Below, piece by piece: positions 4,460 through 23,771 of a DNA stretch of 23,826 bases (positions within the stretch are counted from its first letter, which is position 1; every line of letters begins with the position of its first letter). The notes under the pieces are model-generated. The model was not told the DNA's origin. It was given only the letters and a program-made list of their open reading frames with translations, and did no database searches. Made by a program: the position numbers and the translations under genes. Source of the stretch: a virus; the IMG/VR virus record IMGVR_UViG_3300008119_000047, positions 1 to 23,826 of that record. The stretch is one strand, 5' to 3'.

Positions 4460-4488
4460 ATTATAGCAAACAACTACAAGGTTGTCAA
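4460..4488 (-). promoter_or_regulatory. Consensus sigma70 promoter for the ligase operon
   Basis: On the minus strand TTGACA (4488-4483), a 17-bp spacer and TATAAT (4465-4460) match the consensus exactly. The predicted start is near 4453, leaving a short leader with Shine-Dalgarno AGGAA before ATG 4426. The -35 box overlaps the 3' end of the ClpP-like gene. Confidence 0.92.
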
Positions 4489-5072
4489 CCTTTTTCTTGG
4501 AAAATATGATCGGCTACGCCCAATTCGATTAATTCATCAGCAGTCAAATACACATCAGATGCTGGCAAAAGTTTATTTTTAACAGATCGAGTATCCAATC
4601 CGGTTACTTCTTTTAGAATGTTTACCATTCTCATGTTGCAATATTCGGACTCTTTCATTTGAGCTTTGATATCGTGGTACTTGGCATCCATTCCATCAGT
4701 GAATTGATGACACATGATTCCAGTATTTGGAGCAATATAGCGTTCACCATTTTCGCCAGAAGCAAAAATTAAAAAGGCAGCACTCATAATATTACCCATA
4801 CCAATTGTACGTATTTTGTGAGTACTCACCCGCATCACATCTATCAGAGCAAATGCTTGATACAAATCACCGCCACTGCTATTGATATAAAGAGTTAGCA
4901 CTTTTTCTTGTTTTTTATCAAGATTTTCGTAAACAATCCATTTAATAGCTTCACTTATATTAACATCCTCAATTTCGCCCAACAAGAAGTGAACGCCGTT
5001 GTCCAGCAACTTGGTGTTTATGCGATCCTGCGCATTGAATTCGTCGATTTTTTTCACGGGTTTGCCTTCCAT
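4485..5072 (-). CDS. Divergent ClpP-like serine protease, 195 aa
   Basis: A ClpP/crotonase-fold protease. The oxyanion loop is seen in NSSGGD (64-69), Ser97 sits in IMSAAF, His122 in MCHQF, and Asp173 in SDVYLTADE, so a full Ser-His-Asp triad is plausible. The sequence is clearly different from the canonical ClpP at 6226-6846: GMGNIMSAA replaces GQACSMGS, and there is an insert NENGERY-type loop. ClpP subunits form barrel-shaped heptamers; phage copies can act with host ClpX/ClpA, as partners of a second ClpP, or as capsid-maturation proteases. Its location one gene from a second ClpP, with a plus-strand probable structural gene between them, fits the last two options. Confidence 0.88.
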   Translation of the reverse strand: MEGKPVKKIDEFNAQDRINTKLLDNGVHFLLGEIEDVNISEAIKWIVYENLDKKQEKVLTLYINSSGGDLYQAFALIDVMRVSTHKIRTIGMGNIMSAAFLIFASGENGERYIAPNTGIMCHQFTDGMDAKYHDIKAQMKESEYCNMRMVNILKEVTGLDTRSVKNKLLPASDVYLTADELIELGVADHIFQEKG

Positions 5073-6220: not shown

Positions 6221-6231
6221 ATTGTTTAGGG
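6216..6231. terminator. Small palindrome between convergent gene ends
   Basis: CCTAAA-TTG-TTTAGG (6 bp stem) sits exactly between the stop of the plus-strand gene (6220) and the stop of clpP (6226). It has no T-run, so termination activity is uncertain. Confidence 0.35.
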
Positions 6232-6846
6232 TCGTTTTTCAATCACTTTATCAGCCAAGCCGTAGGCCACTGCTTCTGCGGCACTCAAAAATGTATCAAA
6301 CTTCATAGCTTCGTACAGCTGAGCATAGGTTTTGCCCGCTGTATTGTGCTTAACATACAGTTCTGTCAAACGCTGATTAATACGTTGACTTTCTTCAAAG
6401 CTACGTTTTGCATCTTCAAACTGAAGTTCTTGAACGTGAACGCTACCACGTGTTCCCGGAGTTCCCGAACTAACACGGTGAATCATAGTACGAGCTTCTG
6501 GAAGCACAAATCGTTTTCCTGGATGTCCGGCCTGTGCTAAGAAACTGCCCATACTACAGGCTTGTCCCATAACATAGGTTGCTACATCTGGTTTTACAAA
6601 TTGCATGGTATCGTAAATAGCAAGGCCAGCAGTAACAGATCCTCCAGGACTATTAATAAAGAAAGTAATGTCTTCATTACCTTGACTCTCCAAGAAGAGC
6701 AACTGCGCCACAATCAAACTGGACGTATGCTCGTTAACATCCGTATCTAACATAACAACACGGTCCTTGAGCAAACGACTATAAATGTCATATGCTCTTT
6801 CGCCCTTGGGCTCACTTTCAATTACCATTGGTACCAAATTAGGCAT
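6226..6846 (-). CDS. clpP: ClpP protease, canonical type, 206 aa
   Basis: A near-canonical ClpP. It has the FFINSPGGSVTAGLAIYDTMQ strand-helix (about 62-82), the active serine Ser98 in GQACSMGSFL, His123 in MIHRVSSG and Asp184 in FDTFLSAAEA. The ERAYDIYSRLLKDRV segment near the N-terminus matches the usual ClpP start (GERAYDIYSRLL), and the length matches bacterial ClpP without a long propeptide. It would form the heptameric proteolytic chamber that works with a Clp unfoldase; no unfoldase gene is visible here, so it would need the host's. The second, divergent ClpP lies 1.2 kb away, as in bacteria with ClpP1/ClpP2 pairs. Confidence 0.95.
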   Translation of the reverse strand: MPNLVPMVIESEPKGERAYDIYSRLLKDRVVMLDTDVNEHTSSLIVAQLLFLESQGNEDITFFINSPGGSVTAGLAIYDTMQFVKPDVATYVMGQACSMGSFLAQAGHPGKRFVLPEARTMIHRVSSGTPGTRGSVHVQELQFEDAKRSFEESQRINQRLTELYVKHNTAGKTYAQLYEAMKFDTFLSAAEAVAYGLADKVIEKRP

Positions 6847-11331: not shown

Positions 11332-12006
11332 TTACACGAATACGTGGTCTGTGTCAATCTTTTTAAGTCGGATATAAACCTTTTTGGCAAGGCGTTTTAT
11401 TAGTCCGTCGTCAATATTACCAAAATGGCTAACATATGCATTGAGATTTGGACTTACGTATACATTTTGAATTTTAAAACGACTAAGTGCTGTGAAACGA
11501 TGCATATAATTTAGGGCTCGATATTTGCCTAAAGTTCTGCATAATTCTATGGTGATGGATAACGCATATGCATCCAGTTCATCTGGATCTGCTAGATAGT
11601 TCACGTAGGGTTCTTGCATGTGATTGCTGTAAACAGCATAGTGCCTTTTTACACTTTGACGGCGATGTCTGTATTCGTGTACAACAGCATCAAATAATTG
11701 AACTAAAATATCAGTAACGTGCTTGTGATCCCATGTTTCTGTATTTGCAAAATTGTGATAAAGAAATACTTCTATGGCAGTTTCGTGATTTTTATCATCC
11801 TCTGCGTCATAGTAGGCATTAACGTAGAACTCTTCAGGACCCAAGAATTTTTTACGTTGAGTTTTTAGGGCAATGTCAAAATCGTGTTTTTTAAATTGAC
11901 GACGTGCTTTGGTCATCAAGGCTTTAAATGAAACGGGAAAGTCACAGTCTTTTCTTACGGCCACACATACAGAGTTTGCTCGCTCCAGTATGGTGTTCAT
12001 GTTCAT
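11332..12006 (-). CDS. HExxH metallopeptidase-like phage protein, 224 aa
   Basis: Residues 110-114 are HEYRH in a helix (FDAVVHEYRHRRQSV), the zincin HExxH motif. A downstream DPDELDAYA (about 140-147) could give the third ligand Glu143, as in gluzincins and in the SprT/WSS1-like group. The rest is basic. If active it would cut a peptide or protein in the cytoplasm; no signal peptide is present. It directly follows infA with a 4-base overlap. Whether it acts as a protease cannot be shown from sequence. Confidence 0.75.
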   Translation of the reverse strand: MNMNTILERANSVCVAVRKDCDFPVSFKALMTKARRQFKKHDFDIALKTQRKKFLGPEEFYVNAYYDAEDDKNHETAIEVFLYHNFANTETWDHKHVTDILVQLFDAVVHEYRHRRQSVKRHYAVYSNHMQEPYVNYLADPDELDAYALSITIELCRTLGKYRALNYMHRFTALSRFKIQNVYVSPNLNAYVSHFGNIDDGLIKRLAKKVYIRLKKIDTDHVFV

Positions 12007-12218
12007 AGCCTGTAAGTTACTCTGCCCTTGTTTAAATCATAGGGACTTGTTTCAACGCGAACACGATCGCCCAAGATAACTTTAATTTTGTGTTGCTTGA
12101 GTCTGCCACCCAAATAACAAAGCATTACGTGTTCCATATCATCAATTTTTACTCTAAAAGTATTATTGGGACATACTTCTAAAACCTCACCCGTTAGTTC
12201 AATTAGTTCTTTACTCAT
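12003..12218 (-). CDS. infA: Translation initiation factor IF-1
   Basis: The 71-aa product lines up along its full length with bacterial IF-1. It has ELTGEVLEVCPNNTFRVKID (bacterial: [20 protein letters not shown]), LGGRLKQHKIKVILGDRVRVE ([20 protein letters not shown]) and SPYDLNKGRVTYRL (TPYDLSKGRIVFR). This is the S1-type OB fold that binds the ribosomal A site on the 30S subunit and helps IF-2 and IF-3 select the initiator tRNA. It lies in an operon with an AbrB-like gene (4-base overlap upstream) and an HExxH protein (4-base overlap downstream). A phage copy could compete with or replace host IF-1 late in infection; the initiator-type tRNA at 19221-19296 makes this more plausible. Confidence 0.93.
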   Translation of the reverse strand: MSKELIELTGEVLEVCPNNTFRVKIDDMEHVMLCYLGGRLKQHKIKVILGDRVRVETSPYDLNKGRVTYRL

Positions 12219-15979: not shown

Positions 15980-17386
15980 TTAGATATCGTAGCGTGGGAC
16001 CATTACAGTCTTAAGCATGATACCTTCTGGAGTGAATTGGTCCATATCCGCTGACAGCAGTGCTGTCATGATGCTTGGGCTAAATCCACTTACCAATGCG
16101 GCACCACTCTTGTCTGCCTTAACAGGCACATTGTCTGAACTGTTTAGGTTCCAGAAAACAATTTGTGGCACAACATAGCCAGCAGTTTCAAACTTGCGTT
16201 CGATCATTTCCATTGCGCTGTCGTCGAAACGGGCGCATTGGTTAAACTGCATGTCTGACAAGATCAGCAACATCTTTGGCATGTCGCTTGCTGGTACTGA
16301 ACCCTTAACTGCAACGCTTAGGATCTTGTCCATAGCGGCATGCAAGTTAGTGCTCATTTCCCAATCACTCTTAGACATTTGGGTTACCTTGTCAACAATG
16401 TTACCCTTTAGAGTAACAAGTTGTGGCTTGCTGGAGAAAGTCAAGAATGTGTCCTTGAACACACCCTTGTTCTTATCAGCCAAGTACAAGCCTAGGCCAA
16501 CCGCAACATCCAAACAACGAACAGTCGAACCCGGAACAGATGTTGTCATCGAACCAGATACGTCAACTAGAGGCAGGATACTTGCGTCACCTACGTAGTT
16601 AGGCAGAGCGTCCCATTGTGCGATCACATGGTCAATTTCTGTCTTGTTCAGCTTGTTGTAGCTGTGAGCGATTCCCTTCAGTACGTCATGTGGGAAGATT
16701 GCGCTGGCGTTAACCTTGACAGTCTTATCACCACTTACCAACTTGGCCACATACTCAGCAAATGCTGGTGTGTGACGGTTGAATGCCTTCTTGTAGTTGC
16801 GAGCAGCTACAGAAGGAACGTGACTGAAATTGATGTTATCCCAATCTCCTGCACACATTTGGGTTTCAACAACCTTTGTAAGAGTAACAAGACTCTTACG
16901 ATATTGCTTTGGAGTCATGCCAAAGAAGGCACGAACTTCAGCGGCAATTTGACCCTTACGAGGAGTCCACTTTGCAGCCAAACCGTTCTTAGCACGTAGG
17001 GCATCACCCAACATGGTATAAGCGGCTGACTTCAGGTCAGGGTTAGAGAAGACAAAGATGTCATCCCAACGACCAACTTCTGGAATCTTCTTTAGAAGAG
17101 CCAAAGCGGCGTCTGGGTCACGCTTTTCTAGATGTACTAGAATATCGCGGAACAATTGACGTTCGCCTGCGCCACCGCGGACATCACGTGCCCATTGTGC
17201 GATGCGTAGTGCTACATCAGAGTTTTCTACGTAGGCGGCTGTGAAGTCGCCTGTGATGTCCTTACCACGGCTTGCGCCGATCTTGTAGAACAAGTCAACT
17301 GTAGCCTTGGCTGTTGACTTACGAGCCTTCATACCGTTTGCGGTACGGGCTTCTTGATTTGCTACTGCATTTACAAATGCGTTCAT
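15980..17386 (-). CDS. Ro60/TROVE-like (DUF2828-type) vWA-domain protein, 468 aa
   Basis: The first ~260 residues are helical repeats with the block RDVRGGAGERQLFRDIL (about 68-83) and KKIPEVGRWDDIFVF (about 99-113). This matches the 'RdxRGGxGeR...P.yGrwdDL' pattern shared by TROVE and DUF2828 proteins. The C-terminal part is a von Willebrand A domain with a complete MIDAS motif DVSGS (275-279) and a later LILSDMQF aspartate. Ro60 is a ring that binds the 3' ends of misfolded RNA and Y RNAs; in bacteria it can be tethered by Y RNA to exoribonuclease. Shine-Dalgarno AAAGGAAATATC precedes ATG 17386. Long leader and tRNA-mimic RNAs nearby support an RNA-binding role. DUF2828 versus true Ro60 cannot be decided by eye. 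Confidence 0.85.
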   Translation of the reverse strand: MNAFVNAVANQEARTANGMKARKSTAKATVDLFYKIGASRGKDITGDFTAAYVENSDVALRIAQWARDVRGGAGERQLFRDILVHLEKRDPDAALALLKKIPEVGRWDDIFVFSNPDLKSAAYTMLGDALRAKNGLAAKWTPRKGQIAAEVRAFFGMTPKQYRKSLVTLTKVVETQMCAGDWDNINFSHVPSVAARNYKKAFNRHTPAFAEYVAKLVSGDKTVKVNASAIFPHDVLKGIAHSYNKLNKTEIDHVIAQWDALPNYVGDASILPLVDVSGSMTTSVPGSTVRCLDVAVGLGLYLADKNKGVFKDTFLTFSSKPQLVTLKGNIVDKVTQMSKSDWEMSTNLHAAMDKILSVAVKGSVPASDMPKMLLILSDMQFNQCARFDDSAMEMIERKFETAGYVVPQIVFWNLNSSDNVPVKADKSGAALVSGFSPSIMTALLSADMDQFTPEGIMLKTVMVPRYDI

Positions 17387-17956: not shown

Positions 17957-18033
17957 TGGAGTGGGTGACAGGACTCGAACCTGCATAAAACGGATTTGCA
18001 ATCCGGGGCCTAACCATTCAGCGGCACACCCAC
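17957..18033 (-). tRNA. tRNA-Cys (GCA)
   Basis: Perfect 7-bp acceptor GUGGGUG/CACCCAC, U73 and encoded CCA. Anticodon loop UUGCAAA gives GCA. T-loop UUCGAGU. U73 is the usual Cys discriminator. Confidence 0.95.
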
Positions 18034-18038
18034 ATATT

Positions 18039-18113
18039 TGGTACCTGGTCACGGTTTCGAACCGCGGACCTTCGCCGTGTAAAGGCGTTGCTCTACCCCT
18101 GAGCTAACCAGGC
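18039..18113 (-). tRNA. tRNA-Val (UAC)
   Basis: Acceptor GCCUGGU/ACCAGGU with a G1:U72 pair, A73, CCA encoded. Anticodon loop UUUACAC gives UAC. D-arm GCUCAGGGGUAGAGC is canonical. Confidence 0.95.
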
Positions 18114-18119
18114 AAATTC

Positions 18120-18350
18120 TTATCTTAATTTATTTAAATATGCATTTGCATCAACTTTACCTTCTTGTATTTCAAGAAGTGCTGACACGATAGGTAACAT
18201 TGTGTAGTTGCCATTTTTAACTGCTTCACGTTTGATTTCACGTGCTCGAGCAGCTGCCACTAGAACTAATTGAAATCTATTTTGATTTGTAAGTTTAACA
18301 CATTTATCTGTGTCAATCTCTGGACCTCGACTTGAGTATCGTGTAGCCAT
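18120..18350 (-). CDS. rpoZ: RNA polymerase omega subunit
   Basis: The 76-aa product contains the omega core: NQNRFQLVLVAAARAREIK (bacterial: IGNRFDLVLVAARRARQMQ), then MLPIVSALLEIQEGKVDANA (TVIALREIEEGLI). Omega wraps the C-terminal tail of beta' and helps assembly of bacterial RNA polymerase. The N-terminal MATRYSSRGPEIDTDKCVKL replaces the usual ARVTVQDCVEK. It has its own promoter (18373-18401) and a strong Shine-Dalgarno TTAGGAG eight bases before ATG 18350. It is embedded between tRNA genes. A phage omega could exchange with the host sub-unit and change ppGpp sensitivity or promoter choice; that is inference. Confidence 0.88.
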   Translation of the reverse strand: MATRYSSRGPEIDTDKCVKLTNQNRFQLVLVAAARAREIKREAVKNGNYTMLPIVSALLEIQEGKVDANAYLNKLR

Positions 18351-18372
18351 GTTATCTCCTAAGTAAGTAACT

Positions 18373-18401
18373 ATTATAACAAACTACTTGTACTACGTCA
18401 A
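18373..18401 (-). promoter_or_regulatory. Sigma70 promoter for rpoZ
   Basis: TTGACG (18401-18396), 17-bp spacer, TATAAT (18378-18373). The predicted +1 near 18366 gives a short leader with TTAGGAG for rpoZ and would also transcribe the Val and Cys tRNAs. Confidence 0.88.
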
Positions 18402-18407
18402 GTATTT

Positions 18408-18499
18408 TGGTACCAGCGGAGGGAATCGAACCCTCTCAAGAACGCTAATCTGGCGCTAAAAGGTTTATAAAACCTCTCTGACTACCAAGTCTCGCTGGC
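18408..18499 (-). tRNA. Class II tRNA with apparent UAU anticodon, identity uncertain
   Basis: Acceptor GCCAGCG/CGCUGGU with A73 and CCA, T-loop UUCGAUU, and a long variable arm (AGCG..CGUU) typical of Leu/Ser/Tyr tRNAs. The 7-base loop UUUAUAA would give UAU (Ile AUA codon), which does not fit a class II tRNA. The D-arm is a short GACU-UGGU-AGUC and position 8 is not U. It may be a degenerate or recoded tRNA. Confidence 0.75.
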
Positions 18500-18505
18500 A
18501 GTAAG

Positions 18506-18579
18506 TGGAGCGGGGTAAGAGAATCGAACTCTCAGCATTAGCTTGGAAGGCTAAGGTATTACCACTATACGAACCCCGC
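18506..18579 (-). tRNA. tRNA-Gly (UCC)
   Basis: Perfect acceptor GCGGGGU/ACCCCGC, U73, CCA. Loop CUUCCAA gives UCC (codon GGA). Confidence 0.95.
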
Positions 18580-18585
18580 ATATTT

Positions 18586-18756
18586 TTATTTTATTTCTCG
18601 ACCAGCTAAGTCTGCTTTACCTGTTTCGTAAAGTTCCTTACGCTGTGCAAATTCTTCTTCTGTTAGTCCATGCCAGCCACAACATTTGCCAGTTGGGCTA
18701 CGTCCGCACCCGCATCGACCAAATTCTTTTTCGTTTTCTTTTACTCTAACTTGCAT
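18586..18756 (-). CDS. Cys-rich small protein, CDGSH-like, 56 aa
   Basis: The frame begins MQVRVKENEKEFGRCGCGRS, continues PTGKCCGWHGLTEEEFAQRK and ends DLAGREIK. The block CGCGRS-PTGK-CCGWH keeps the three Cys and one His of CDGSH iron-sulfur domains (C-x-C-x2-S...C-x-G-x-H), with one residue fewer before the third Cys. It could bind a 2Fe-2S cluster or zinc. Shine-Dalgarno is weak (AGGAAAT). It lies between two tRNA genes with no promoter of its own seen. Confidence 0.65.
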   Translation of the reverse strand: MQVRVKENEKEFGRCGCGRSPTGKCCGWHGLTEEEFAQRKELYETGKADLAGREIK

Positions 18757-18772
18757 CTCTATTTCCTAAAAT

Positions 18773-18848
18773 TGGTGGAGGATACAGGGATCGAACCTGC
18801 GACCTATTGCTTGCAAAGCAACCGCTCTCCCAACTGAGCTAATCCCCC
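18773..18848 (-). tRNA. tRNA-Ala (UGC)
   Basis: Acceptor GGGGGAU/AUCCUCC with the G3:U70 wobble that defines alanine identity, A73 and CCA. Loop UUUGCAA gives UGC. Confidence 0.96.
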
Positions 18849-18849
18849 A

Positions 18850-18926
18850 TGGTCGGAGTACAAGGATTCGAACCTTGGACCCCCTGGTCCCAAACCAGGT
18901 GCGCTACCAGACTGCGCCACACTCCG
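18850..18926 (-). tRNA. tRNA-Pro (UGG)
   Basis: Acceptor CGGAGUG/UACUCCG, A73, CCA. Loop UUUGGGA gives UGG. Only one base from the preceding tRNA-Ala. Confidence 0.95.
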
Positions 18927-18928
18927 AA

Positions 18929-19114
18929 TTAAACTTTTTTATCTATATTGTTACCAGTATCATTTTGTTTTACTGTTCCGGTTTTATCATAGAGATATCT
19001 TTCTGTTTCAATGTATTGTTTTTGTGTTACAGGATCTTCCACAGTCCTATAGACCGTTTTACGATAACGGTCACTAACCATATCCCAAACATTACGTACA
19101 GAGGTTACTATCAT
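18929..19114 (-). CDS. Small phage protein, 61 aa
   Basis: From ATG 19114 the product is MIVTSVRNVWDMVSDRYRKT, then VYRTVEDPVTQKQYIETERYLYDKTG and a hydrophilic tail. A longer frame to 19183 only translates the tRNA-Thr and is rejected. Tyr- and Arg-rich and soluble; not recognised. It fills the gap between tRNA-Thr and tRNA-Pro. Confidence 0.6.
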   Translation of the reverse strand: MIVTSVRNVWDMVSDRYRKTVYRTVEDPVTQKQYIETERYLYDKTGTVKQNDTGNNIDKKV

Positions 19115-19122
19115 AAAGTCCT

Positions 19123-19197
19123 TGGTGCCGGTTGTCGGGATTGAACTGACGACCTCCCGCTTACAAGGCGGATGCTCTACCACTGAGCTAAACCGGC
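19123..19197 (-). tRNA. tRNA-Thr (UGU)
   Basis: Perfect acceptor GCCGGUU/AACCGGC, A73, CCA. Loop CUUGUAA gives UGU. T-loop UUCAAUC. Confidence 0.94.
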
Positions 19198-19220
19198 ATA
19201 AACTTACTTATTACACTAAC

Positions 19221-19296
19221 TGGTTGCGGGACTTGGATTCGAACCAAGGATGGCAAAGGCTTATGAGACCTCGCTAGTGACCAGACCTTCCCCGCG
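19221..19296 (-). tRNA. Initiator-type tRNA-fMet (CAU)
   Basis: The 5' strand CGCGGGG equals that of E. coli initiator tRNA, and the 3' side is UCCCGCA-ACCA. C1:A72 is therefore unpaired, the main identity element for formylation and start-site use. Loop CUCAUAA gives CAU. Anticodon stem GAGGU/GCCUU keeps two of the three initiator G:C pairs; the third is U:G. The D-arm is irregular (no U8). Total 76 nt with CCA. Confidence 0.85.
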
Positions 19297-19300
19297 ATAA

Positions 19301-19411
19301 CTTTAATCAAACACACTTTACACTTTTCTCAACGGTGGTGTGTAGTCCTTACAACCCAAACTATGTTTAGGCAAAATGTATTTGATTAAAGTGTCTAGCT
19401 ACCTACACCAC
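19301..19411 (-). ncRNA. Pseudoknotted RNA between fMet and truncated Asn tRNAs
   Basis: A 14-bp helix pairs 19301-19314 with 19378-19391. Its only mismatch on the plus strand becomes a G:U wobble on the minus strand. A second helix pairs 19335-19345 with 19403-19411 (9 bp, 2-nt bulge) and crosses the first, giving an H-type pseudoknot. A 7-bp hairpin CCUAAAC-AUA-GUUUGGG lies inside and also needs the minus-strand wobble. No coding potential. Confidence 0.55.
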
Positions 19412-19498
19412 ATAGGCCCTAAACTGAGCTGTTACTCTGTCCACGTATTTTTCTATTTAGACGGGTTAGCGTTCCTGCCTTTGTGATTTCTCAAGTCG

Positions 19499-19551
19499 CC
19501 ACGGACCAAAAGATTAACAGTCTTCTACTCTACCAACTGAGCTACTGCGGA
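19499..19551 (-). pseudogene. Truncated tRNA-Asn (GUU), 5' two thirds only
   Basis: UCCGCAG-UA-D-arm (GCUCAGUUGGUAGAGU)-anticodon arm GAAGA-CUGUUAA-UCUUU-variable UGGUC-CGUGG is a perfect tRNA-Asn up to the 5' strand of the T-stem. The T-loop and 3' acceptor are missing; unrelated structured sequence follows (19412-19498 and the pseudoknot RNA). No matching 3' half was found in the window. Confidence 0.75.
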
Positions 19552-19558
19552 ATAGTTC

Positions 19559-19786
19559 TTACTCTGCGCTTGGTGTTGCGCTATTACTTGTTGTTACATA
19601 TGATGCAGTGCCTTGTGGTCGCTTGTCATTGCGGTCACGTGTCTTAACAACTACTCTACTGCACAATTCTGCATCAATCATTGCACGTTTCCACTGTCCG
19701 TGAGCATGTGCGTCTTTCCATTTAGATAATGCTAAACTTGCTTTTGTCATGCTACTCATCTTATATGTACTAGTTGGTTTCATCAT
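19559..19786 (-). CDS. Small phage protein, 75 aa
   Basis: The product MMKPTSTYKMSSMTKASLAL, then SKWKDAHAHGQWKRAMIDAELCSRVV, has a basic helix followed by a Ser/Thr-rich tail. The start may be ATG 19786 or 19783; a weak AAAGG lies upstream. The 'ALSKWKDAHxHGQWKRAMIDAE' block recurs in phage proteins of unknown role (pattern memory). Located between tRNA-Ser(GCU) and the truncated tRNA-Asn. Confidence 0.65.
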   Translation of the reverse strand: MMKPTSTYKMSSMTKASLALSKWKDAHAHGQWKRAMIDAELCSRVVVKTRDRNDKRPQGTASYVTTSNSATPSAE

Positions 19787-19807
19787 ATTTTACCTTTTTA
19801 AAAATAA

Positions 19808-19895
19808 TGGCGGAGCATGTAGGAATCGAACCTACTCACCCATTGCTGAATGACAGATTAGCAATCTGTTGCCTTAACCGGTCGGCCAATGCTCC
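19808..19895 (-). tRNA. tRNA-Ser (GCU)
   Basis: Class II tRNA with a long variable arm. Perfect acceptor GGAGCAU/AUGCUCC, G73 (serine type), CCA. Loop UUGCUAA gives GCU. Confidence 0.95.
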
Positions 19896-20045
19896 ATAAA
19901 AAATTTGTCTATCGTCACATACTATCCAAGGCATGCGCTGAGTCCGGCATGGAGCCAGACTTGCTACGGGCTTCAGGTACAGTAATAAGCGACTTGGTTA
20001 GCTCACTACTCACATATGGATAACCGTACACACATAAACAAAACT
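19896..20045 (-). other. Spacer with a possible 32-codon ORF and stable hairpins
   Basis: A GTG-started minus frame (VSSELTKSLITVPEARSKSG then SMPDSAHALDSM) could be a mini-gene, but there is no clear Shine-Dalgarno. The sequence also forms a 7-bp hairpin GTCTGGC/GCCGGAC. No T-loop or tRNA was found. Confidence 0.3.
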
Positions 20046-20135
20046 TGGCGGAAACGGTGAGATTCGAACTCACGGTGCCTTTCGACACGACAGTTTTCAA
20101 GACTGTTGCAATAAACCGGACTCTGCCACATTTCC
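20046..20135 (-). tRNA. tRNA-Ser (UGA)
   Basis: Class II. Acceptor GGAAAUG/CGUUUCC, G73, CCA. Loop CUUGAAA gives UGA. Long variable arm CGUGUCGAAAGGCACC. Confidence 0.95.
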
Positions 20136-20140
20136 TAATT

Positions 20141-20225
20141 TGGTGGAGTATCCTGGGATCGAACCAGGCGTGCCCGAAGGCGGCGGATTTACAGTCCACT
20201 GCATCACCATTGATGCTTCTACTCC
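20141..20225 (-). tRNA. tRNA-Tyr (GUA)
   Basis: Class II. Acceptor GGAGUAG/AUACUCC (last pair G:A mismatched), A73, CCA. Loop CUGUAAA gives GUA. Variable arm GCCGCCUUCGGGCACGC. Confidence 0.92.
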
Positions 20226-20232
20226 ATATACT

Positions 20233-20315
20233 TGGTGCCCCAAGAGAGACTCGAACTCTCACGCACTAGGCACTGGCTTCTAAGACCAGCGTGTCTACCA
20301 TTCCACCATCGGGGC
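20233..20315 (-). tRNA. tRNA-Leu (UAG)
   Basis: Class II. Acceptor GCCCCGA/UUGGGGC, A73, CCA. Loop CUUAGAA gives UAG. D-arm with the Leu-type GGUAGACAC. Confidence 0.95.
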
Positions 20316-20319
20316 ATAA

Positions 20320-20396
20320 CATATTAAAACACACTAGGGGCTATGCCACCTTACGATTCCAGAATTCTCGGATGTTGCCTAATGTGTTTTAATATG
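20320..20396 (-). ncRNA. Long-stem hairpin RNA filling the Glu-Leu tRNA spacer
   Basis: 17 consecutive base pairs join 20380-20396 (CATATTAAAACACATTA) to 20320-20336, with a single wobble that is possible only on the minus strand. They enclose 43 nt with a palindromic AGAATTCT. The helix begins in the CCA of tRNA-Glu and ends 5 nt before tRNA-Leu(UAG). It could be a ncRNA or a processing signal for the array. Confidence 0.6.
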
Positions 20397-20470
20397 GTAC
20401 TCGGTAGGGGAATCGAACCCCTCTTCCCGCCGTGAAAGGGCGGTGTCCTAGACCGATAGACGAACCGAGC
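20395..20470 (-). tRNA. tRNA-Glu (UUC)
   Basis: Acceptor GCUCGGU/ACCGAGU, A73, CCA. Loop CUUUCAC gives UUC. First tRNA behind the promoter at 20506-20534. Confidence 0.95.
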
Positions 20471-20505
20471 ATATTAACTTTTAAATTTTTAATGAACAAG
20501 TATCT

Positions 20506-20534
20506 ATTATAACATCACTTAAGAGCAATGTCAA
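20506..20534 (-). promoter_or_regulatory. Consensus sigma70 promoter inside the tRNA array
   Basis: TTGACA (20534-20529), 17-bp spacer, TATAAT (20511-20506). The predicted +1 near 20499 gives a transcript starting 29 nt before tRNA-Glu. Confidence 0.92.
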
Positions 20535-20538
20535 TAGA

Positions 20539-20904
20539 TTAAAATAATACAATGATTAAAAACAAATAACAAATTTGGTGAGCCATTTGATCTAAACCCA
20601 AATGATTCCAAAATGCTTTAGTGGTAATATCTCTATTACCCCAATTCATTTTTGCCCAATCAATGTGATAGTGTAATACACCATCTACAGCGGCTGCTAC
20701 TATGATCCAAAATACTGAAAGTTCTACGTAAAAACTTGCTACGGACAATGCTGCCAATGTACCGATTACATGTTCTAAACTGTGACTGATTCCTATACGA
20801 TTTCCGTATATGCCTTTGCCTTTTATCTGTGCATCACTTTGCAAAACAAAGTCTACAATCCAATGTTTTACCTGTAACCAAATTAGAACAATTAATATTT
20901 CCAT
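20539..20904 (-). CDS. DUF3307-type small membrane protein, leaderless mRNA predicted, 121 aa
   Basis: The start is ATG 20904, seven bases after TATAAT, so the mRNA should be leaderless; the longer frame from 20928 would lie inside the promoter. MEILIVLIWLQVKHWIVDFV and LQSDAQIKGK, then SHSLEHVIGTLAAL and later membrane segments, match DUF3307 proteins ('HxxxDFxLQ...H...H'). Three to four hydrophobic helices are seen, with His residues at the second and fourth. The family is found in bacteria and phages and has no assigned activity. The stop lies just before the promoter at 20506-20534. Confidence 0.85.
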   Translation of the reverse strand: MEILIVLIWLQVKHWIVDFVLQSDAQIKGKGIYGNRIGISHSLEHVIGTLAALSVASFYVELSVFWIIVAAAVDGVLHYHIDWAKMNWGNRDITTKAFWNHLGLDQMAHQICYLFLIIVLF

Positions 20905-20910
20905 AGTGCA

Positions 20911-20939
20911 ATTATATAGTGATTTCAACTGTTTGTCAA
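20911..20939 (-). promoter_or_regulatory. Consensus sigma70 promoter, leaderless start
   Basis: TTGACA (20939-20934), 17-bp spacer, TATAAT (20916-20911), then TGCACT and ATG. The +1 is predicted on the A of the ATG at 20904. Confidence 0.92.
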
Positions 20940-20958
20940 CAGTCTATTGAAAATATTT

Positions 20959-21033
20959 TGGCCGGGCTTGAGAGGATCGAACTCCCACCCTCGGTTTCGA
21001 AGACCGAGATGATATCCATTTCACCAAAGCCCG
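20959..21033 (-). tRNA. tRNA-Arg (UCG)
   Basis: Perfect acceptor CGGGCUU/AAGCCCG, G73, CCA. Loop CUUCGAA gives UCG (codon CGA). Confidence 0.94.
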
Positions 21034-21037
21034 TAAT

Positions 21038-21112
21038 TGGTCCCGTTAACAGGAATCGAACCTGTATCTAATTCTTAGGAGGAACTCGTTCTATCCATTG
21101 AACTATAACGAG
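21038..21112 (-). tRNA. tRNA-Arg (CCU)
   Basis: Acceptor CUCGUUA/UAACGGG with one wobble, A73, CCA. Loop CUCCUAA gives CCU (codon AGG). Confidence 0.93.
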
Positions 21113-21364
21113 TATCATGAGTAAAGGACTTGAGAGATTTTGGTTTAGACTCGATGAGTCCCAAGGCATCCCAAGTGTTAATAGCACTTGCTCTACTAGT
21201 CTAGCCTAACATGGAGCCTATTGTCCCTCAACATTGTACGCTATTAACGCCGCCGTCATTTTGAAACAAGCAATACATCTATGATGTAATATGCACTAAC
21301 TTTCCACATCAGTACAATTCCTTTTACGGTCGCTTAATAAGCCTTAGTCCCTTACTAATGATAC
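21112..21364 (-). ncRNA. ~250-nt structured RNA with paired ends
   Basis: A 19-bp terminal helix (17 of 19 identical as inverted repeat) pairs 21112-21130 with 21346-21364. Inside are TACATC-ATA-GATGTA, CAAGTG-CTATTAA-CACTTG, GACTC-ATC-GAGTC and a 7-bp ATTGTAC/GTACAAT pair. The 7-nt loop CTATTAA is exactly complementary to TTAATAG upstream, which would make a pseudoknot or kissing contact. No ORF and no tRNA parts. Confidence 0.6.
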
Positions 21365-21371
21365 TAAATTC

Positions 21372-21457
21372 TGGTGCGAGTACCCGGGATCGAACCGGGA
21401 CACCTTGCGGCGAGAGATTTTAAGTCTCTTGTGTCTACCAAATTTCACCATACTCGC
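21372..21457 (-). tRNA. tRNA-Leu (UAA)
   Basis: Class II. Perfect acceptor GCGAGUA/UACUCGC, A73, CCA. Loop CUUAAAA gives UAA. Variable arm CGCCGCAAGGUG. Confidence 0.95.
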
Positions 21458-21475
21458 ATTTGCTTAACAGTCCTT

Positions 21476-21481
21476 ATTATA
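21476..21481 (-). promoter_or_regulatory. Possible -10 box before tRNA-Leu(UAA)
   Basis: A perfect TATAAT lies 19-24 bp before tRNA-Leu(UAA), but the sequence 17 bp upstream (TAGGCT) is a poor -35 box. An activator or extended promoter would be needed. Confidence 0.35.
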
Positions 21482-21536
21482 CAATACTTTCTAACTTTAG
21501 CCTATGCATATCGGTAATATGCTACAAAATTAAATT

Positions 21537-21613
21537 TGGTACCCCACCCCCGACTCGAACGGGGAACACACTCCTTTTGAGAGAGCCGCGTCTACCAATT
21601 GCGCCAGTGGGGC
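21537..21613 (-). tRNA. tRNA-Leu-like (CAA), short variable loop
   Basis: Acceptor GCCCCAC/GUGGGGU, A73, CCA. Loop CUCAAAA gives CAA (codon UUG). The D-arm is Leu-type (AAUUGGUAGACGC), but the variable loop is only 5 nt, unlike normal class II Leu tRNAs. Amino-acid identity is therefore uncertain. Confidence 0.8.
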
Positions 21614-21631
21614 AATAGAACGTTAACATAG

Positions 21632-21639
21632 ATTAAATA
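21632..21639 (+). promoter_or_regulatory. Possible late-type promoter box
   Basis: ATTAAATA on the plus strand just before the ATG at 21644 resembles the T4 late box with two mismatches. It would give an almost leaderless transcript. Weak evidence. Confidence 0.25.
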
Positions 21640-21643
21640 CTGT

Positions 21644-21865
21644 ATGAAAAAAATTAATCTATTTTTTAGTTTGTCTCCAGCCCCAATATTTTTATTAGGG
21701 GCTGTATTAAGTTATTTCTACACGCACAACATCTGTGGTGGTTTTTTCTTAGAAATGCCAATAATGTGGTTAGTTATGAGTTTGGCACACATCAGCCCGT
21801 GGCTCATGTGGTGGCAACAAAGAAAATTTCAAAGATTCCAAACTTTGCCTGACAAACAACAGTGA
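21644..21865 (+). CDS. Small two-helix membrane protein, 73 aa
   Basis: A plus-strand gene within a minus-strand array. MKKINLFFSLSPAPIFLLGA through VLSYFYTH (about 8-28) and FFLEMPIMWLVMSLAHISPW (about 34-53) are two membrane helices, followed by a basic tail WWQQRKFQRFQ. It ends convergent with, and overlapping by 37 bases, the gene at 21829-22080. No Shine-Dalgarno is seen. It is like small phage inner-membrane proteins, possibly lysis or superinfection related, but that is a guess. Confidence 0.65.
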   Translation: MKKINLFFSLSPAPIFLLGAVLSYFYTHNICGGFFLEMPIMWLVMSLAHISPWLMWWQQRKFQRFQTLPDKQQ

Positions 21866-22080
21866 TAGTGTCCATCTAGTACTGACAAGATAGACTTGTA
21901 CAAATCCCAAAGTCTGTCAGGATACTGTTCGTAATATCCATCATCAATATATCCTATGTCGTGTGCCTTTACAGTTCCAAACGGTCCTTCTATGTACATA
22001 TTAGTAACTGCGCCATGATCAGAATTGCCTAATATTTCTTGGGCAAAGTTTAAATTTTTATCAATAGGATACCAGTTCAT
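21829..22080 (-). CDS. Small phage protein, 83 aa
   Basis: From ATG 22080 the product is MNWYPIDKNLNFAQEILGNS, then MYIEGPFGTVKAHDIGYIDDG and YYEQYPDRLWDLYKSILSVLDGHYHCC. The upstream extension of this frame translates tRNA-Arg(UCU) and is rejected. Tyr- and acidic-rich and soluble; the C-terminal GHYHCC could bind a metal. Not recognised. Confidence 0.62.
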   Translation of the reverse strand: MNWYPIDKNLNFAQEILGNSDHGAVTNMYIEGPFGTVKAHDIGYIDDGYYEQYPDRLWDLYKSILSVLDGHYHCCLSGKVWNL

Positions 22081-22097
22081 ACAAGTATTTAATCTAG

Positions 22098-22172
22098 TGG
22101 TACCGCTTAGTGGAATCGAACCACTATTCACACTTTAGAAGAATGTTGTCCTATCCATTGAACGAAAGCGGT
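22098..22172 (-). tRNA. tRNA-Arg (UCU)
   Basis: Perfect acceptor ACCGCUU/AAGCGGU, A73, CCA. Loop CUUCUAA gives UCU (codon AGA). Confidence 0.94.
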
Positions 22173-22173
22173 A

Positions 22174-22247
22174 TGGTGCTCCTACGTAGAATCGAACTAC
22201 GATTACTCACATACCAAGCGAGTGTTCTACCATTAAACTATAAGAGC
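22174..22247 (-). tRNA. tRNA-Thr (GGU)
   Basis: Acceptor GCUCUUA/UAGGAGC, A73, CCA. Loop UUGGUAU gives GGU (codon ACC). Confidence 0.93.
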
Positions 22248-22255
22248 ATATTGTT

Positions 22256-22330
22256 TGGTGCCTCTGTATGGAATCGAACCACAATCCCCGGCTTCGTAGA
22301 CCAGTGTATTATCCATTATACTACAGAGGC
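22256..22330 (-). tRNA. tRNA-Arg (ACG)
   Basis: Perfect acceptor GCCUCUG/CAGAGGC, A73, CCA. Loop CUACGAA gives ACG, so it needs host TadA to make inosine at position 34. Confidence 0.93.
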
Positions 22331-22336
22331 AAAATT

Positions 22337-22410
22337 TGGTAGTTCCTAAAAGAATTGAACTTTTGTCTGCGCGATGTCAACGCACTGTTCTACCATTAAA
22401 CTAAGGAACT
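22337..22410 (-). tRNA. tRNA-Val (GAC)
   Basis: Perfect acceptor AGUUCCU/AGGAACU, A73, CCA. Loop UUGACAU gives GAC (codon GUC). Confidence 0.92.
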
Positions 22411-22415
22411 GTATT

Positions 22416-22491
22416 TGGGGTGCCTTACCGGTATCGATCCGGTACTACCGCTTTCACAGAGCAGGGTGCAGGCCACTACACTAAAGACACC
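22416..22491 (-). tRNA. tRNA-His (GUG)
   Basis: Eight-base-pair acceptor GGUGUCUU/AAGGCACC with the extra G-1 opposite C73, the histidine identity pair. Loop CUGUGAA gives GUG. CCA encoded. Confidence 0.95.
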
Positions 22492-22496
22492 ATAGC

Positions 22497-22570
22497 TGGC
22501 AGGCGGACTAGGGATCGAACCTAGGCTAACAGAGTCAAAGTCTGTTGTGCTACCATTACACAATCCGCCA
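22497..22570 (-). tRNA. tRNA-Gln (UUG)
   Basis: Acceptor UGGCGGA/UCCGCCU with an open first pair (U1:U72), as the weak 1:72 pair of Gln tRNAs, G73, CCA. Loop CUUUGAC gives UUG. Confidence 0.92.
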
Positions 22571-22581
22571 ACAAAATAAAC

Positions 22582-22693
22582 AGGATAGAATTTAACATAG
22601 TGCTACCGTTACACCAAACCTTGCGGCTACGGAGTCGAACCGTTCCTTTTCTTTTCAAGAGAAGTGAGTTATAATTTTTGCTGTTACTATCCT
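22582..22693 (-). ncRNA. Y RNA-like circularly permuted tRNA mimic (element 1)
   Basis: On the minus strand the ends pair over 7 bp (AGGATAG/CTATCCT) plus 5 bp (TAACA/TGTTA). After a purine/U-rich region with a TTCT..AGAA hairpin come, in order: a T-arm ACGG-UUCGACU-CCGU (22643-22629), immediately an acceptor-like stem AGCC-GCAA-GGUU capped by a GNRA loop (22628-22617), the linker UG (equivalent to U8, R9), and a D-arm GUGU-AACGGUA-GCAC (22614-22600). This is the order of a tRNA opened at the anticodon and closed at the acceptor, the plan of YrlA-type bacterial Y RNAs. There is no CCA, no anticodon and no ORF. It lies between tRNA-Thr and tRNA-Gln. Confidence 0.8.
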
Positions 22694-22697
22694 TAAC

Positions 22698-22771
22698 TGG
22701 TGCCCCATGACAGAATCGAACTGCCGTAACCTGATTACAAAACAGGTGTAATACCATTATACTAAAAGGGC
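22698..22771 (-). tRNA. tRNA-Thr (UGU), second copy
   Basis: Acceptor GCCCUUU/AUGGGGC with one wobble and one U:U mismatch, A73, CCA. Loop UUUGUAA gives UGU, same as the tRNA at 19123-19197. The last anticodon-stem pair is U:U. It is quite different in sequence from the first copy, so not a recent duplicate. Confidence 0.82.
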
Positions 22772-22776
22772 GTAAT

Positions 22777-22850
22777 TGGAGCGGGTAGCGAGAATCGAAC
22801 TCGCGAATAAACCTTGGCAAGGTTTCAGGTTACCATTACATCATACCCGC
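22777..22850 (-). tRNA. tRNA-Gly (GCC)
   Basis: Perfect acceptor GCGGGUA/UACCCGC, U73, CCA. Loop UUGCCAA gives GCC. Confidence 0.95.
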
Positions 22851-22856
22851 ATATTG

Positions 22857-22930
22857 TGGCGTACCTCCAGAGACTCGAACTCCGACGAACAGTTTTGGAG
22901 ACTGTCATGCTGCCATTACATTAGAGATAC
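22857..22930 (-). tRNA. tRNA-Trp (CCA)
   Basis: Acceptor GUAUCUC/GAGGUAC, G73 (Trp type), CCA. Loop CUCCAAA gives CCA (codon UGG). Confidence 0.94.
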
Positions 22931-22937
22931 ATATTCT

Positions 22938-23014
<77 letters not shown>

Positions 23015-23037
23015 ATTAAACTATTTACAACTTATTT

Positions 23038-23112
23038 TGGTGGTAACGGTGAGATTCGAACTCACACCGGGCGCCGTATGAAGGCGGTGCACAACCATTA
23101 TGCTACGTTACC
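23038..23112 (-). tRNA. tRNA-Met elongator (CAU), or Ile2
   Basis: Perfect acceptor GGUAACG/CGUUACC, A73, CCA. Loop UUCAUAC gives CAU. The first pair is G:C, so it is not an initiator. If C34 were modified to lysidine by host TilS it would read AUA (Ile); sequence alone does not decide. Confidence 0.9.
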
Positions 23113-23181
23113 ATATGGAAACATTCTATCTTAGCCATCAAGAGGCATTGCGTTATACGTCTTTAGAATGTTTTCATATGG
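23111..23181 (-). ncRNA. 18-bp long-stem hairpin filling the Lys-Met tRNA spacer
   Basis: 23164-23181 pairs with 23111-23128 over 18 positions with one mismatch. The helix starts in the CCA of tRNA-Lys(UUU) and ends in the first bases of tRNA-Met. A 35-nt loop holds a small UCUU/AAGA hairpin with a 7-nt loop. Layout matches the spacer hairpin at 20320-20396. Confidence 0.55.
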
Positions 23182-23253
23182 TAGGGGCACAGGGACTCGA
23201 ACCCTGATAGACCGGTTAAAAGCCGGCTATTCTAGCCTTTGAATTATACCCCC
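23179..23253 (-). tRNA. tRNA-Lys (UUU)
   Basis: Acceptor GGGGGUA/UGCCCCU (G1:U72 and one more wobble), A73, CCA. Loop CUUUUAA gives UUU. Confidence 0.93.
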
Positions 23254-23256
23254 ATA

Positions 23257-23332
23257 TGGTCCCTGCTGTGAGATTCGAACTCACACCTCATTGATTAAGA
23301 GTCAAGTGCGCTACCATTAACGCTAAACAGGG
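23257..23332 (-). tRNA. tRNA-Lys (CUU)
   Basis: Acceptor CCCUGUU/AGCAGGG, A73, CCA. Loop CUCUUAA gives CUU (codon AAG). Confidence 0.92.
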
Positions 23333-23392
23333 TTGTACGTATTAATTGATTTTACGTGCCAACCCTAGACCATACGGGGATCTAGAGTGACA

Positions 23393-23413
23393 CTAACGTT
23401 TAGTACGTTTCAT
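23393..23413 (-). CDS. Six-codon mini-ORF (MKRTKR) with a strong ribosome-binding site
   Basis: AAAGGAG lies 6 bases upstream of ATG 23413. The frame MKRTKR stops at TAG 23393. The ATG overlaps the TGA of the frame at 23410 (ATGA). It is followed by a CTAGA/TCTAG hairpin. It could be a leader peptide or a chance ORF. Confidence 0.3.
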   Translation of the reverse strand: MKRTKR

Positions 23414-23556
23414 GCCGTTCTCCTTTGTTGAATTAGTACAAGTTGTTCACCGCACAACTTGTAAGGCGGGGGTCTGTTGAATTTGTAAGTAGTTGCCCCA
23501 TCGTTATAGCAACCATTCACCCGTGTAATAAACTCGAGCGGGACTCGGTACGTCAC
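23410..23556 (-). CDS. Possible small protein between tRNA mimic and mini-ORF
   Basis: A minus frame with possible GTG start at 23556 reads VTYRVPLEFITRVNGCYNDG and ends LVLIQQRRTA; it looks protein-like (Tyr-rich, mixed). The best Shine-Dalgarno (AAAGGAGA, 23585-23578) lies too far upstream for this GTG, but fits a CTG at 23572. The frame further upstream only translates the tRNA mimic. Uncertain. Confidence 0.3.
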   Translation of the reverse strand: MTYRVPLEFITRVNGCYNDGATTYKFNRPPPYKLCGEQLVLIQQRRTA

Positions 23557-23670
23557 TTGGGATTCATCCAGTTTGTCTCCTTTACAGACCTCCGCCGTTC
23601 CCGGCAGGTGGGAGTTGAACCCAAAACCTTCTACTATACAATACCTTCGAAGAATACTGAATAGCGTGAC
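23552..23670 (-). ncRNA. Y RNA-like circularly permuted tRNA mimic (element 2)
   Basis: Same plan as element 1. On the minus strand GTCAC and ATTCAG near the 5' end pair with GTGAC and CTGGAT near the 3' end. Between them lie a T-arm UGGG-UUCAACU-CCCA (23623-23609), an acceptor-like 6-bp helix CUGCCG-GGAA-CGGCGG with GNRA loop (23607-23592), the linker AG, and a D-arm GUCU-GUAAAGG-AGAC (23589-23575). There is no CCA and no anticodon arm. The terminal helix is less regular than in element 1. The AAAGGAGA in the D-arm could also act as a ribosome-binding site for the small frame downstream. Confidence 0.68.
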
Positions 23671-23695
23671 TTCACTTGCTGACACTTACAAAACT

Positions 23696-23771
23696 TGGTG
23701 CTACCTCCAGGGATCGAACCTGGTTCAACGGTTCTTCAGACCGCCGCTATGACCACATCAGCTAAAGTAGC
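23696..23771 (-). tRNA. tRNA-Phe (GAA)
   Basis: Acceptor GCUACUU/AGGUAGC, A73, CCA. Loop CUGAAGA gives GAA. First tRNA of the array in transcription order within this window. Confidence 0.94.

Follow-up and report, generated by a model that had tools for sequence, protein, structure and literature searches.

The determinants of formylation and P-site selection in bacterial initiator tRNAs have been listed, those of formylation comprising the lack of a strong 1:72 pair, G2:C71 and C3:G70 as well as A11:U24 (PMC7949028), and within the 3GC element (29-31:39-41) the pairs 29:41 and 30:40 receive A-minor contacts from G1338 and A1339 of 16S rRNA (PMC7005279). Initiator tRNAs encoded by phages are already known, since phage T5 carries a gene annotated as "initiator tRNA fMet" with U1:U72, U31.G39 and a D arm of normal length. 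The tRNA(CAU) considered here, encoded at 19221-19296 on the minus strand in the DNA of a freshwater phage, is a structural variant of this known kind: like the T5 molecule it is a phage-encoded initiator with U31.G39 and a non-pairing 1:72 (U:U in T5), but T5 retains U8 and a full-length D arm. The window (the whole stretch analysed) is the entire IMG/VR record of 23,826 bases, and therefore probably represents part of a larger virus.

The E. coli metY/metZ tRNA-fMet shares with the window tRNA C1xA72, G2:C71, C3:G70, the CUCAUAA loop, G29:C41, G30:C40, the T arm and the encoded CCA. An earlier note, made from the sequence, had equated the ends of the two molecules (CGCGGGG and CCCGCA-ACCA), and these do agree, position 66 being U here and C in E. 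coli. The likeness does not extend to the whole molecule, as the window tRNA has A8 instead of U8, no A11:U24, a vestigial D arm with a 2-bp stem, a 7-bp bulged anticodon stem and U31.G39; none of this abnormal core (A8, the two stems, U31.G39) appeared in the earlier note.

Two other systems are close in part. The unconventional tRNA-fMet of Mycoplasma (AU/GC/GU stem) is likewise an initiator with a departed 3GC element, although its 31:39 pair is G.U and not U.G, and the case is described by its anticodon-stem pairs only (PMC10568206). Type I mitochondrial tRNA-Ser(UCN) and M. alvus tRNA-Pyl combine a 0-1 nt connector between acceptor and D stems with a small D loop and an elongated anticodon stem, which in tRNA-Pyl has a single 3'-side bulge (PMC7609411). 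The window tRNA resembles them in its 1-nt connector and its 7-bp bulged stem (established by covariation), a likeness of architecture for which no homology is claimed: those tRNAs have Ser or Pyl identity, are not initiators and are not phage-encoded, and a longer variable region is retained in the phage family described below (family A). In the literature covered, no description of D-arm-reduced initiator tRNAs in phages was found.

Structure of the tRNA and its genomic setting

The features used in the analysis are as follows.

19221-19296, minus strand: initiator-type tRNA(CAU), compact-core phage class (family A), called as CAU by ARAGORN at exactly these coordinates
19290-19296, minus strand: acceptor 5' strand CGCGGGG, with C1 unpaired with A72
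19276-19288, minus strand: vestigial D arm, preceded by A8 as sole connector, with a 2-bp stem (A9:U21 and G10:C20) and GG in the loop, from pair changes in relatives
19253-19274, minus strand: extended anticodon arm of 7 bp with one bulged U and loop CUCAUAA, from covariation
19263-19265, minus strand: anticodon CAU
19232-19248, minus strand: canonical T arm, CUUGG UUCGAAU CCAAG
19225-19231, minus strand: acceptor 3' strand TCCCGCA, including A72
19221-19224, minus strand: A73 and encoded CCA
23038-23112, minus strand: second tRNA(CAU), acceptor fully paired, elongator Met or Ile2 class
17957-23771, minus strand: dense phage tRNA cluster, with 29 ARAGORN genes and some visible to Rfam alone
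12003-12218, minus strand: translation initiation factor IF-1 (PF01176, 1.1e-19)
15980-17386: Ro/TROVE-like DUF2828/DUF7788 gene
4485-5072 and 6226-6846: two ClpP-like genes

The ARAGORN call and the sequence confirmed C1 opposite A72 and the CAU anticodon, both reported by the earlier note, which was also right in placing in the same genome a separate CAU tRNA with a paired end (paired at 1:72) and an IF-1 gene. The initiator-type gene begins CGCGGGG A AGGTCTGGTCACT A GCGAGGT CTCATAA and continues GCCTTTGC CATC CTTGG TTCGAAT CCAAG TCCCGCA ACCA. Its core consists of A8, then A9 G10 GUCUGGUCA C20 U21, then A22, directly followed by the anticodon stem, whose 7 bp join 23-29 to 37-44 with a single U bulged out and enclose CUCAUAA; four connecting nucleotides then lead to a normal T arm and acceptor. 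In standard numbering, U31.G39 is the closing pair of the anticodon loop. A long gapped pattern for this tRNA gave one match in the record, and its reversed control gave none.

Several other genes of the cluster are also of note. tRNA-Ile(UAU) (18408-18499, minus strand) has 92 nt, a 1-nt connector, a 3-bp D stem, a 6-bp anticodon stem and a long variable arm; its top Rfam match is tRNA-Sec, under the cut-off, and it is conserved in 52 loci. A tRNA-Asn-like gene (19440-19560, minus strand), normal in its 5' half but abnormal in its 3' half, scores 28 bits, slightly under the RF00005 cut-off, and portions of it match 87 related loci. tRNA-Tyr(GUA) (20144-20225, minus strand) was assigned by eye, being reported by Rfam (33.6 bits) and not by ARAGORN. 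An omega-like RNA polymerase subunit of the Rpb6 family (18120-18350, minus strand) also lies within the cluster.

Conserved RNAs of other kinds are interspersed. Immediately upstream of the initiator-type tRNA, a long-stem RNA (19297-19400, minus strand; 31 related loci, 20 aligned) has a conserved core AAGGAC..CACACCRCCGT..GAAAAGTG and a variable outer stem; an initiator is not always adjacent to it. A second conserved long hairpin (20316-20394, minus strand) was found in 9 loci with the core GGCAACA..GTAAGRTGGCAT, and a third (23113-23178) in 2 loci only. The RNA at 22575-22697 (minus strand, 14 related loci) folds into a tRNA-like body: a GCAA/GAAA tetraloop caps the acceptor, and the D, T and anticodon-like arms are enclosed by an outer stem (GGATAG/CTATCC). 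It looks like a Y RNA of the YrlA type and shares its cluster with the Ro/TROVE-like gene, whose DUF2828 protein has relatives in 326 viral stretches; the Rfam YrlA model does not call it (E only about 2).

Conservation of the compact core and of initiator identity

Relatives were counted in public contigs, of which many are fragments and some near-duplicates; distinct sequences are given where so stated. A pattern with the anticodon region only and no acceptor bases found 59 viral stretches, and a broader pattern at least 120. Over 60 distinct family A sequences, 24:43 has the highest mutual information of any pair in the molecule (C:G 29, A:U 20, U:A 7, G:C 3); 23:44 and 25:42 also covary, and the extension columns are 97-98% paired. 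Columns of the D stem likewise change as pairs, 9:21 from G:C to A:U and 10:20 from G:C to U:A. A sequence identical to that of the window tRNA is present in two other phage contigs (L228, L254).

A second family (family B; 92 and 107 viral stretches in two scans) comprises 71-nt RNAs that lack a D stem and have an invariant TCAGG..A where the D arm would be; the pairs of its anticodon-stem extension (20:41, 21:40, 22:39) are 98-100% paired with several pair types. The paired substitutions in the extended anticodon, acceptor and D stems of relatives indicate that the compact architecture is selected and not decayed. Covariation was used for the stem extension instead of isolated folding of the anticodon region, which was dropped as proof because bacterial initiators also give 8 pairs. 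An RNAfold 3-bp D stem (10:21, 11:20, 12:19) was also dropped, the covarying columns being 9:21 and 10:20.

For the acceptor determinants, 1:72 was judged solely from scans naming no acceptor bases, as A72 was forced in the others. These scans gave 73 distinct relatives (25 of family A and 48 of family B), all with G:C at 2:71 and C:G at 3:70. Position 1:72 was C:A in 37, U:A in 14, A:U in 11, U:U in 5, A:A in 4 and C:U in 2, and never G:C or C:G. The pairs 4:69, 6:67 and 7:66 vary, with pairing nearly always retained. The window tRNA itself has no strong 1:72 pair (C:A), G2:C71, C3:G70 and CAU in the loop CUCAUAA; A11:U24 is missing, the D stem having only 2 bp, and the 3GC element is incomplete, with G:C at 29:41 and 30:40 and U.G at 31:39. 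Of the two main P-site features, the window tRNA retains the 1:72 mismatch and two thirds of the 3GC element.

Limnohabitans phage DC31, which is in culture, has a gene of family B (AGCGGGT ATTCAGGGTATCCA CAAGT CTCATAA GCTCT GTGCA GAAGTTTCGAGTACTTC ACCCGCT TCCA) between annotated tRNA-Pro and tRNA-Tyr genes; this gene is unannotated and missed by ARAGORN. Because its 1:72 pair is A:U, the rule common to families A and B is a weak pair at 1:72 rather than a mismatch. Some relatives combine U:A or A:U at 1:72 with U73, which would weaken initiator identity. In the initiator-type tRNAs of Vibrio phages CZ01 and D484 (L559, L560), U1 faces A72, position 73 is U and the 3' strand of the acceptor seems to contain a bulged A.

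When loci of 10 or more tRNAs are taken as clusters, 37 of the 39 in the clade include an initiator-type tRNA, compact in 11 and with a canonical core in 26, so that initiator identity persists although the core varies. Seven viral loci (L217, L470, L509, L547, L548, L016, L042) each encode two initiator-type tRNAs that differ from one another; five of these loci combine a compact tRNA with one whose core has canonical length. Judged from sequence, the initiator type of the window tRNA is well supported, because the weak 1:72, G2:C71, C3:G70 and the CAU loop survive turnover of the acceptor stem and 37 of the 39 clusters keep such a tRNA.

Bacterial initiators were collected with a pattern blind to the core. 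All 121 have U8 and A11:U24, 120 have G31:C39, and 18-20 nt separate the acceptor from the anticodon stem; a reduced D arm with a lengthened anticodon arm was not found in this sample. G29:C41 occurs in only 85 of the 121, so the 3GC element is not strictly universal. Applied to viral loci with 3 or more tRNAs close by, the same pattern gave U31.G39 in 22 of 45; position 8 is not U in 13 of 45, and the acceptor-to-anticodon spacing falls to 14 nt. The viral and bacterial sets differ (Fisher, p=3e-15 for U31.G39 and p=1e-8 for position 8), these values being descriptive as the rows are not phylogenetically independent. The cluster group excludes single host-type initiators near contig ends, which are probably bacterial copies lying at the ends of prophages. 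The frequency of U31.G39 was taken from these 22 of 45 loci, the pattern being blind to 31:39; the count of 95/101 in compact tRNAs was not used as evidence, since most scans named those bases. A scan of 398 Pseudomonadota genomes gave no U31.G39 initiator (the four matches of the pattern had no T arm by eye and were counted as chance), and a C39 pattern matched in 304 of the same genomes.

Related versions of the compact tRNA occur in hundreds of viral contigs and are frequently overlooked by gene finders. An RF00005 search of the window reported neighbouring tRNAs and did not report the 19221-19296 gene at the gathering threshold or at E<=5. A bacterial-initiator covariance model gave it 41 bits, sixth among the tRNAs of the window and behind several elongators, a low score that we attribute to its D arm. 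Initiator-type CAU tRNAs are also present in other cultured phages, labelled tRNA-Met or unannotated. Phage initiator tRNAs are under-counted, because ARAGORN misses the checked family B genes and some checked family A genes, and Rfam misses the window gene.

Proposed role and competing explanations

The preferred reading, to which we give a probability of about 0.72, is that the phage encodes an initiator-type tRNA, compacted in its core, that would supply initiator tRNA during infection. The CAU loop serves MetRS, and the D-loop GG and the T loop serve the elbow. The window tRNA keeps these elements together with the acceptor features of a formylation substrate, G29:C41 and G30:C40, but no longer has U8, A11:U24 or the 4-bp D stem. 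Host MetRS would charge the compact tRNA, host Fmt would formylate it and IF2 would deliver it to the 30S P site. Phage mRNAs would thus obtain initiator tRNA during infection while the rest of the cluster supplies elongator tRNAs, and initiation may be sustained while the phage depends on its own tRNA set. By analogy with tRNA-Pyl and the type I mitochondrial tRNA-Ser, the L shape is probably preserved by compensation, a short D arm going with a long anticodon stem. Several points count against this reading: A11:U24, an aid to formylation, is gone; the third 3GC pair is U.G, and poor growth is described for an E. coli strain whose initiator has the AU/GC/GU stem (PMC10568206); the compact fold is rejected in part by both ARAGORN and Rfam. 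The relatives with U:A or A:U at 1:72 and U73, and the low rank under the bacterial-initiator covariance model, weigh on the same side.

A possible, though improbable, reason for the existence of this tRNA, not an alternative to its identity, is replacement of host tRNA-fMet cut by VapC-type anticodon nucleases, with C39 changed to G, G31 to U and the remodelled stem resisting the toxin. Enteric VapC cleaves tRNA-fMet between A38 and C39 (PMC4105405); the change at 39 adjoins this cut, and nuclease escape is therefore a testable reason. The occurrence of U31.G39 in 22 of the 45 viral loci, against none of the 121 bacterial initiators and none of the 398 Pseudomonadota genomes, and its presence in T5 tRNA-fMet agree with escape, and evasion of anticodon nucleases has been put forward for phage tRNAs in an eLife study (PMC10264068). 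However, the loop CUCAUAA itself is unaltered, U31.G39 could reflect relaxed selection on a pair without ribosome contact, and the eLife study states that in S. flexneri phages generally avoided encoding tRNA-fMet.

Dedicated control of initiation, in which the phage IF-1 and the tRNA would form a private route favouring phage mRNAs and U31.G39 would alter the 3GC checkpoint, is quite unlikely. IF-1 is present in the window and in the five largest records of the clade (at least 167 kb), but none was detected in further records, of 208 and 235 kb, from phages that have initiator-type tRNAs, and the pairs gripped by 16S rRNA, 29:41 and 30:40, are intact; the link between IF-1 and the initiator tRNA, which the earlier note took to point to control of initiation, is one of co-occurrence only. 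A non-translational RNA (a decoy, a primer or a Y-RNA-like tRNA mimic) is very improbable: the Y-RNA-like and other non-tRNA elements of the cluster and the Ro/TROVE-like gene would fit it, whereas translation, unlike a decoy, needs what is present here: an unbroken anticodon loop, an encoded CCA, the GG, the T loop and the exact determinants of formylation. There is little to recommend an elongator Met or Ile2 tRNA, to which the CAU anticodon and the U:A or A:U at 1:72 of some relatives could point, since the window tRNA and most relatives have a mismatch at 1:72, and clusters of the clade usually encode a separate CAU tRNA with full pairing as well. That the gene is decaying or a pseudo-tRNA can be practically dismissed, for despite the missing RF00005 match, the vestigial D arm and a few relatives without encoded CCA or with damaged D arms, paired acceptor, anticodon and D-stem substitutions run through 60 (family A) and 55 (family B) distinct sequences, and the same sequence recurs in the two phage contigs mentioned above.

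Beyond the preferred reading of a compact phage initiator, we consider it rather doubtful that a minimal initiator tRNA has arisen several times in phages, down to the D-stem-less 71-nt form, keeping only the formylation, MetRS and P-site contacts and thereby escaping host nucleases or quality control directed at the canonical core of tRNA-fMet. If so, phage proteins would start even when the host initiator tRNA is destroyed. The compact tRNAs offer a natural experiment on the rules of formylation and P-site selection, that is, on which initiator parts are discardable in a bacterial-type system: U8, A11:U24 and the D stem are apparently dispensable, and the weak 1:72, G2:C71, C3:G70 and G30:C40 are held. 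The cultured pair formed by Limnohabitans phage DC31 and strain DCL3 renders the question testable.
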